From positions 124,001 to 188,000 of the forward strand of contig WPIO01000065.1 of assembly GCA_009760855.2 (NCBI GenBank): a stretch of 64,000 nt of DNA, given 5' to 3'. The translations under genes and the position numbers were made by a program. Below are positions 12,301 to 15,300 of this stretch, piece after piece; within the stretch, counting starts at the first letter, position 1; every line of letters starts with the position of its first letter. A model generated the notes under the pieces. The model saw only the letters and a program-made list of their open reading frames with translations. It had not been told where the DNA came from and did not search any database. Source of the DNA: Cristatella mucedo (lineage: Eukaryota > Bryozoa > Phylactolaemata > Cristatellidae).

Positions 12301-15300
12301 TATCCACGGACCAGCCAAGCCGCACGAGTAGCCAGGCGACAGCCGACGACGATGGCCGGCCGGAAAAAAGGCATCCCCATGCGTACACACCCATGCCACT
12401 AAACGCCGACAAGCAAGTGTGTAACAAACAGGCTGCATGAAACGATGTTCGGTCGCCATCGACGCCCATGCAGCAGACGTTGCCGTGCAAACGACTCGCG
12501 CCGTCATCGGTGGGCAACGACGACCCCGACACATCGACGTGCTGATGCCACCTGCGCATGCTGCCAAGCCTCTGCTTACGCCTACCCATCATCTCGGACT
12601 CCACATGCAGCGCTTCAACGCCAGCTGCCAATTGTGGTGGAGAGAGCGGATAGCTTCCATCGACGGTGATGCACCACGGCGATCCAGGAATGGGAATCCC
12701 ACCGTATGCAATGCTTATGCCGTACGTGCCAGGAGCGGTGGCACAGTAGGTGACACGGCATAGGCCCTCGCCGATATCGTTTAACGATATCACCATCTCC
12801 GCAGGGCCCTCGGCGTGGACGGCCAGACGTAAGAGGAGCTCGCTGGCATTTGGTACGGCTGAGGCATCGACTACAAATTCTGCTCCGGCACCTAATACAT
12901 GGCCTGCCAAGCCGGTTCCACAAACTCGCACATAAGCAGCTTCTGAGACGACCGTGGCTCCTTGACTCAGCTGCCGTGGAAGACTGATGTCAGAAACTGT
13001 AGTGTGTGACGAGTCAGCAGCAAGTGCCGAGGACATCTCAGCTACCTCTCCGACTATTTCACATGTTTCTCCATCTCTCACAGTGACTTCTGAAACCAGA
13101 GGAGCCTGAGAAAACTGTCTTTGACAATCTGGTGCAATAAACTCTTCTGAAACCTGCCGTTCTGTAGCAGACTGACTTCGAGAAACTGGCTCTATTGAAA
13201 CCCACCGTCCTTGTGCAAGCTTGCTTCGAGAAACTGGCTCTATAGACCCTTTTGAAACAAGTTCTTTCGCAAGCAGATCTTGATAAGCAGGTGTTGCAGA
13301 CTTTTCTAAAACAAGCACTTCTTGAGCAAACTGGCCTTGAGAAACTGGTAATATAGACTCTCTTGAAACCCGCCGTTCTTGAGCAAATTGACCTCGAGAA
13401 ACTGGCTCTATTGACTCTTCTAAAACCAGTTCTTGGGCCAACTGATCTTGACAAACTGATGTTGCAGACTCTTCTGAGACCAATGGTCCTTGGGAAAACT
13501 GACCTTGAAAAACTGGTCCTATAGATTCTTTTAAAAACAGCAGTTCACGAGCAAACTGACTTGGGGAAATTGGCTCAATCGACTCTTTTGAAACCTGCCG
13601 TTCTAGGTCAAACTTACTTCGAGAAACTGGCTCTATTGACTCTTCTGAAACCAGTTCTTGGGCCAACTGACCTTGACAAAGTAGTGCTATAGACTCTCTT
13701 GAAACCTGTCGTTCTGTAGCAGACTGACTTCGAGAAATTGGCTCTATTGACTCTTTTGAAACCCGCCGTCCTTGTGCAAACTCACTTCGAGAAACTGGCT
13801 GTGTAGACTCTTCTGAAACCAGTTCTTGGGCTAACAGACCTTGAGAAACAGGGGTCATAGACTTTTCTAAAACCAGCACTTCTTGGAAAAACTGACGTTG
13901 ATAAACAGGCTCTATAGACTGCATGTTGACCTGGCTGCCAATGACAAGAGCAGAAACCGACTGGTTTATTTCCACTGTCGTCGTTAATGTGTCTTTGGCT
14001 TCCACAGCAGCACCTGAAGAGGTGGTGTTTCCTACGAAGTAGCCATCAGCATGCCTAAGTGACATGGAGATAGACTTCCGCACAGATAAATCACTTGTGG
14101 TGGCAGCAGAGACTGCCCCAGCGGCTAAGATTTCTAGTCCAGCTTCGAGTGCCATTTCAGCATCATATGAAAATTGGTCCTGGGAGCCATCACCATCTGA
14201 AAACCTGACAAACGCCCGTTTATTGATGGCAGAGGCTGACAACGTTGCTATTTCATTGGCTACCACAGCTGCTTCTTCAGCCTCAGAAGGATCAAATGAC
14301 CTTCCAGAAGACCCAGAGATCAATGCTGCTGCCAAACAAAAAGTAGACACAAATTTCGATCAGCTTGCAAATCAAACTCAATATTGTCACCGAGATGAGA
14401 CATGGCAAGGAACAGTACGCATGAAAACATGTTGAAGCAAAGAGCGTCGAATGTGAAATCATGTTTGACCGGCGGGGCTATGAAGAAAAAACATTTCCAT
14501 GCAATGGGACACACGAATGACCACCAAGTGGGTCAAACAATAGAGTTCGTATAACGAGCTGAAACTTACTTGGTTGAATATTTTCCACTTTAATTTGACT
14601 AACATCCACACTTGGCTTTACAGTGACACTATATGGGCTCAGAGGAACTTCTTTGTCAGCAAATAGTACGTTGACCGCCATTTTTCCAATGAACTTGGGC
14701 TCATACTCAATCCTGCAAGTGCAAAGTTGAGAATAAAACCACTCGACTAGAGGAAAAAAGAAAAACAATTCACATATATTGCACCAGCTTTCGACCAGCA
14801 CCTACTACAGCGAGAAAGAAGACCATGTTTTTTTCATTTTTCTTTGCCATCAAGAAGCATGAATTCACGAGGGGAAGTCAAGAAAATACCTATAACATTT
14901 GTCCGGCAATCGAATATGTGTTTATGGATCCTTTCGAAAGACAAACATGTTAGAATTGGGATCGGAAGTTCTGACGACTTCCGCAGGAAAGGGAAAATGT
15001 GTTATGCAAACTACACCTAATCCGGATGTAAACCGGAAGCAACAAATCTACAAATAACAGATTTACCAATCTCTGCATCATATGCGACTTGTACCCCAAC
15101 TTGTCGAACCTTGGTAGATCGCTAGAGATGCTTGAAGCTTGTTGAGGTGCATACTTGCGACTTTTGTACAGTTTCATTTCCAGGGTTGGTTGGTGCCTTG
15201 TAAATTAAATAACTAATATTTCACGTATCGTGAAATTTGAAATGTGAGTTCAGCTCTGCTTGTTTGACCCTAGTCTTTAATATTTGATTTCGGTTTGATA

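Follow-up and report, generated by a model that had tools for sequence, protein, structure and literature searches.

A repeat-rich segment in the apparent place of the seventh Ig repeat in one copy of a duplicated filamin gene

The minus strand of the analysed window (64,000 nucleotides, C614:124001-188000 of a 572-Mb assembly) carries a filamin gene in which ~461 residues without Ig character precede Ig8 in exon 16, in frame with exon 15. We slightly favor a history in which Ig7 was lost after gene duplication and this repeat-rich spacer took its place in the exon. The initial annotation had described an acidic, Ser-rich, tandemly repeated segment of about 460 residues ahead of the next Ig, and Pfam, HMM, and TRF analyses bear out that description. 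The first rod segment of filamins is usually viewed as an extended chain of Ig repeats. Alongside a paralogue that keeps Ig7, the gene would serve as a natural experiment testing whether filamin needs an unbroken rod at this point to cross-link actin, and the pair bears on the way a folded domain can give way to repeats growing within a protein.

The filamin gene and its exon 16

We modelled the gene by combining codon scores with splice signals and by comparing it with a second filamin, which the same genome carries on contig C667. The modelled gene has 37 exons, whose 2,835 codons stay open from the start codon onward; it leaves the window at the low end and reaches its stop codon at C614:109387-109389. 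All introns of the model are GT-AG except for one GC-AG intron outside the window, which was chosen because it restores the frame and is apparently used by exon 32 (C614:112795-112918). Two CH stretches (Pfam CH, E 2.2e-39) lie within the first 287 residues of the 2835-aa product. The rod gives 23 filamin HMM matches, or 21 repeats once fragments are merged; matches to Pfam PF00630 above the cut-off are distributed along the gene, and the final Ig matches the HMM up to the last residue (71.4 bits). By its sequence, the gene is a filamin of the FLNA/B/C type and one copy of a duplicated pair. The model includes both alternative-looking exons of one Ig, and an exon of the next Ig is seemingly missing, so the true filamin length will differ from that of the model. 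These alternative-looking exons (219-392 and, just outside the window, C614:123787-123963) are adjacent, each of phase 1 to 1, and encode the second half of the same Ig, which we take to be human Ig19. The same adjacent pair occurs in the C667 filamin (from 847779, and 848388-848561), and no first-half exon was seen between the paired exons of either copy. Perhaps the two exons are mutually exclusive and swap a ligand-binding face.

The 3′ end of exon 15 encodes the first (A) strand of Ig7 followed by one carried base, and the exon matches positions 66-92 of the Pfam Filamin profile below the cut-off (E 0.0041). Exon 16 starts at 14328 behind TTTTTGTTTGGCAG, and a second AG three bases further lies in the same frame; the acceptor scores 2.18 (model median 2.14). 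The exon is open to 12580, where the chosen donor GGC/GTAAGC scores -0.63, the weakest of the 24 scored, and an alternative donor of the same phase at 12586 scores 0.48. Exon 17 starts at 11641, and both junctions of exon 16 are of phase 1. The gene model thus agrees with the initial annotation in closing exon 15 behind the first Ig7 strand and in letting exon 16 follow in frame, phase 1 into 1. Pfam Filamin finds nothing in the segment, and its sole match in exon 16 covers residues 462-551 (E 5.7e-11); ahead of residue 462, no Pfam family reaches its cut-off. A custom filamin-repeat HMM puts the end of Ig6 at residue 857 and the start of the next Ig at 1334, leaving a gap of 476 residues that counts in the 14-residue Ig7 A-strand of exon 15. 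Downstream, intron 16 contains an (AC)n microsatellite at about 11980-12034, as judged by eye.

Table 1 Features of the window filamin gene around exon 16 (window positions)
Feature	Position	Strand	Basis or remark
Filamin gene, 5′ part (model exons 1 to 26)	1..51201	-	37-exon model, Pfam Filamin, CH domains
Exon 17: Ig9 body	11336..11641	-	gene model, HMM
Exon 16, 1749 nt, entered and left in phase 1	12580..14328	-	gene model, splice scoring
Ig9 A-strand site, degenerate, unmatched by the HMM	12580..12658	-	
Ig8, diverged	12659..12946	-	34/90 aligned residues (38%) identical to C667 Ig8
Segment tail, non-repetitive, ~50 residues	12947..13096	-	
Tandem array, 15 units, 274 residues	13097..13918	-	consensus SIEPVSQSQFAQERLVSEE
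Segment 5′ part, non-repetitive, acidic, ~137 residues, homologue not found	13919..14328	-	
Intron 15, 241 bp, no recognised Ig7 sequence	14329..14569	-	gene model, Ig7 probes
Orphan Ig7 A-strand, 14 residues	14571..14612	-	identity to Ig7 strands of relatives
Exon 15: Ig6 end and Ig7 first (A) strand	14570..14712	-	gene model

Absence of Ig7 and the paralogue on C667

The filamin on C667 shares the exon layout of the window gene and its phase-1 exon 16 boundaries. In its exon 16 (830932-831741, 810 nt, acceptor placed by homology), the Ig7 body is followed by a Pro/Gln-rich linker of 81 residues and then by Ig8. Both copies encode a non-Ig linker in this exon, but C667 keeps Ig7, with its linker between Ig7 and Ig8. 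Outside exon 16, each of the 24 exons compared has a counterpart in both filamin models; this exon-by-exon comparison rests on gene models, and that of C667 is incomplete at a run of 5,000 N. In scallop (P0003) and rotifer (P0011) filamins the same first strand continues, by eye, into Ig7, and in the scallop protein there is by eye no linker at Ig7. The orphan A-strand of the window gene retains the hydrophobic pattern and is identical to its counterparts at 6/14 (C667), 7/14 (rotifer), and 5/14 (scallop) residues. Since the C667, scallop, and rotifer filamins have Ig7 at this place, we read its absence from the window copy as loss. They are a better footing for the proposed replacement of Ig7 than the remembered Drosophila protein from which the initial annotation had argued.

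That annotation had also held Ig7 to be absent from exon 16 and the adjacent introns, and tblastn with three Ig7 probes against 94 kb of the contig likewise found no Ig7 in exon 16 or the adjoining introns. The matches with E < 0.05 were other Ig repeats, and the sole match reaching into intron 15 had an E of 0.22 and included the exon 15 A-strand. Across the genome, the Ig7 probe matched the C667 filamin at 8e-45, and five other matches (34-40% identical, E 1.2e-5 to 1e-3) fell at other Ig repeats of both genes. We rejected a hidden or degenerate Ig7 within the segment: aligned locally to the three probes, the first 460 residues of exon 16 gave scores that 0.55-0.85 of 300 shuffles also reached, and the HMM gave no positive score. 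Derivation of the segment by expansion of the C667 Pro/Gln-rich linker was rejected as well, the alignment being no better than shuffles (0.74). The linker does indicate that the sister copy accommodates non-Ig sequence at the same junction.

In a tree of 22 rows calculated without exon 16, the window and C667 copies pair at 100/100, for which the simplest history is duplication followed by Ig7 loss and segment gain in the window copy. The branch of the window copy is about twice as long as that of C667 (0.56 versus 0.25). The arthropod setting assumed in the initial annotation finds no echo here, as the pair groups with sequences from molluscs and rotifers in a tree that contains no arthropod cheerio; the deeper tree is unsure because of long branches (Trichoplax, P0016, and the rotifer). 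Among marker families for an arthropod or annelid source, neither PF00379 (arthropod cuticle), searched across the 572 Mb, nor PF16915 gave a match, a suggestive result given that control genomes gave none for either family. Together, the tree and the missing PF00379 matches suggest a lophotrochozoan from outside the sampled molluscs, so that the animal is probably not an arthropod.

In the scenario that we slightly favor, the Ig7-coding part of exon 16 would have been lost from the window copy after the duplication, and a coding sequence of ~461 residues would have replaced it without a change of exon or frame; a unit of 18-19 residues, multiplied in tandem, would account for more than half of that sequence. 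Exon 16 would be translated, and the segment would link Ig6 to Ig8 as a spacer that is charged, rich in Ser, and under little constraint. Such a spacer could lengthen and loosen the rod and add a pivot behind Ig6 in a rod of about 21 Ig repeats, an effect we liken to that of the flexible, calpain-sensitive hinge 1, which sits further along in vertebrate filamins. Periodic RxxS motifs would be a plausible kinase target, the weakest step of this scheme.

Coding character of the segment

The units of the array have 19 or 18 residues, with one of 16 and the last of 15; they were cut from the translation, so their whole-codon lengths are not independent evidence. TRF reports periods of 57 bp (12.4 copies, 68% matches, score 385) and 168 bp (4.4 copies, score 603); the latter is the stronger and would be accounted for by the arginine-rich and glutamate-rich types into which the units sort by eye. 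The array is acidic (40 D/E versus 28 K/R), and 72 of the 455 residues counted in the segment are Ser.

No second match of the segment was found in the 572-Mb assembly. A mobile repeat as its source was rejected, with no second DNA copy of either the array or the 5′ part in a search that passes over very frequent words and simple repeats. The window likewise yielded no tRNA gene and no member of a known RNA family, and these candidates were rejected as well. At the protein level, 7,999 candidates from a database of 5.8 billion proteins were scored, and none matched the segment at E 0.01; these searches score only the ~8,000 candidates with the most shared words, and since one filamin search excluded candidates longer than ~2,725 aa, a longer query was used for the segment. 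The first 445 residues of exon 16, in frame, had no match among PDB sequences. A single-sequence AlphaFold model of exon 16 alone has a mean pLDDT of 34 across the exon, with Ig8 counted in, and thus says nothing about the segment.

The reading frame of the segment has no stops in 463 codons; the other two forward frames have 27 and 20, and none of 5,000 base shuffles is stop-free. A neutral simulation along the unit tree left the array stop-free in 0.63% of 20,000 runs (P = 0.006), with the tree and substitution pattern being simple assumptions. Among the units, pS is 0.31 and pN 0.28, second codon positions vary most, and this comparison finds no purifying selection on the array residues. 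The ratio pN/pS is 0.89 in the true frame, lower in four of the five other frames (0.62-0.75), and 0.90 in the fifth, so the substitution pattern lends no support to coding constraint on the residues. Judged from these comparisons, the frame of the array seems to be under constraint while its residues are nearly free, as expected of a spacer.

The similarity of pN and pS among the units also fits a segment without function. The window gene could be a duplicate copy that is losing constraint near exon 16, with the segment a neutral accident; the divergence of Ig8 and Ig9 and the longer branch of the window copy point the same way. This reading, which we consider possible if somewhat unlikely, has to contend with the stop-free array, with a model open from start to stop, and with exons 1-3 (the actin-binding domain), which are 77%, 85%, and 94% identical to those of C667.

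Part of the array could alternatively be an exitron, an intron internal to exon 16 that is spliced from donors within the units to an acceptor downstream of the array to give short and long forms. Phase-1 donor-like sites at 13786, 13672, 13618, and 13504 score 2.9-3.2 (the median of the 24 model donors is 2.9), and an in-frame acceptor at 13089 scores 0.91. However, the donor-like sites are not independent, because the donor motif belongs to the repeated unit, and the acceptor of exon 16 beats all others in the exon upstream of Ig8, which score at most 1.4. An open frame is, moreover, unexpected of an intron, and we regard this alternative as very improbable.

The initial annotation had proposed that the segment is flexible or phospho-regulated. 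That is an inference. RxxS/T motifs are enriched in the array (9 versus 3.4 in shuffles that ignore the units being copies of one another), but S/TxxE/D motifs are rarer than in the same shuffles (4 versus 7.1), and the charge-hydropathy index of the array is borderline (+0.07 over 274 residues, compared with -0.09 for the C667 linker and +0.37 for Ig8). The segment may be flexible or phospho-regulated. Instead of serving as a passive spacer, the array might be ordered or multivalent and dock a partner such as a kinase, a phosphatase, or the grooves of filamin's own Ig repeats. Its regular hydrophobic and charged periodicity, the borderline index, and an excess of SxE/D motifs (15 versus 6.3, copies again ignored) as well as of RxxS/T would suit such a role. 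Against it, pN close to pS speaks against a conserved motif, S/TxxE/D motifs are depleted, and no homologous domain was found, with a Phostensin_N match (E 0.0016, 19.3 bits) falling below the Pfam cut-off of 23. Docking of this kind seems to us quite improbable.

Surroundings of exon 16 and spacers of known filamins

Compared with C667, Ig8 and exon 17 are the most diverged parts of the window gene: exon 17 has the lowest exon identity (46%), the other 23 aligned exons ranging from 53 to 94%. The Ig9 A-strand encoded at the end of exon 16 is identical to that of C667 at only 3 of 17 aligned residues, whereas the orphan Ig7 A-strand is better kept. The diverged Ig8 and Ig9 and the weak donor fit relaxed constraint on exon 16, whether from spacer use, part-time inclusion, or decay.

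Part-time inclusion would make exon 16 a regulated cassette. Skipping it would remove the segment and Ig8 and join the Ig7 A-strand to the Ig9 body as one hybrid Ig, and inclusion would give the rod its long insert. With 1749 nt and phase 1 to 1, the exon could be skipped without loss of frame, as could the 810-nt exon of C667, but symmetric phase-1 exons are common throughout the window gene. The weak donor would suit a cassette, as would the degenerate Ig9 A-strand beside a retained Ig7 strand. The hybrid matches the HMM from position 2, native Ig9 from position 20, and the spacing between A- and B-strands in the hybrid equals, by eye, that of C667 Ig7. Yet the hybrid, at 62.7 bits, only slightly exceeds native Ig9 (61.2) and the Ig9 body alone (62.4), and placing the C667 Ig9 A-strand on the window Ig9 body yields 75.4 bits (+13 bits). 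We consider a regulated cassette unlikely. Should splicing toggle one filamin between short, stiff and long, tethered forms, inclusion would supply a tandem-repeat tether of ~461 residues plus Ig8 and skipping a hybrid Ig; such a switchable rod, drawn from sequence features, strikes us as rather improbable. A precedent exists in FLNB, whose exon 30 encodes hinge 1 and, according to PMC6103745, is subject to reported skipping. There, as in the window gene, a spacer-encoding exon could be omitted without changing the rest of the protein, but skipping is reported for FLNB and conjectured here.

Interruption of an Ig rod by a non-Ig spacer, downstream of two CH domains, is common to the window gene and vertebrate FLNA/B/C. 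PMC7714767 gives vertebrate filamins A/B/C 24 Ig repeats, with hinge 1 between repeats 15 and 16 and hinge 2 between 23 and 24; the window spacer instead separates Ig6 from Ig8, taking the place of Ig7. We surveyed 143 relatives, namely all 25 matches of one search and the best 120 of 2,064 of another, with two shared; they are mostly vertebrate and molluscan, and no arthropod cheerio was recognised among them. Of these listed relatives, none with at least 18 Igs has a gap of at least 55 residues after Ig6, and the window copy, with its 476-residue gap, differs from FLNA/B/C relatives in lacking an uninterrupted Ig1 to Ig8. A gap of at least 55 residues follows Ig19 in 45 of the 143 (90-118 residues; FLNC-type as far as named), and none of the 45 has one after Ig6.

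Gaps of at least 55 residues after Ig6 do occur in P0019 (59), P0023 (266), and P0024 (246), each with 14-17 Igs. Long gaps at sites other than behind Ig19 are also present in the lepidopteran P0020 (369) and P0022 (363), in P0019 (173), and in P0011 (169). P0017 (bee) and P0022 have three CH domains each, the mark of the jitterbug/FLN-2 type. The window gene resembles that type in having a long non-Ig stretch between Ig repeats but has two CH domains, and the stretches in the jitterbug/FLN-2 rows follow the second or third Ig. Jitterbug has "long intervening sequences", a feature common to FLN-2, as stated in PMC3143143, so filamins with long non-Ig stretches are in themselves nothing new. 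The earlier statement that no filamin was known with such a segment was accordingly too strong, given jitterbug and the stretches of 246-369 residues in P0020, P0022, P0023, and P0024. As far as our searches reach, a tandem array replacing Ig7 in a two-CH filamin would be new; no description of an Ig7 replacement in a filamin was recognised in the open-licence literature.

Several further observations concern the filamin genes and their introns. A 30-nt micro-exon (AVPAEDFVDE) is predicted at C667:842024-842053 and is absent from the window gene model. Another run of weaker Filamin-repeat matches at C277:1408565-1475823 is perhaps a further filamin-family gene. Intron 14 of the window gene contains a large inverted repeat of foldback type at 14869-15813, with arms of 221 nt (93% complementary) and 122 nt (80%). 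The same intron holds a dispersed repeat at 15840-16020 that is tRNA-like by eye and probably a SINE. Drawn from 40 of 3270 candidates scored, 42 matches to it were listed, itself included, and 39 of these are nearly full length at 87-92% identity; the exon 16 segment differs from this dispersed element in having no second DNA copy found. A stretch similar to the element is visible by eye near 18420-18500.
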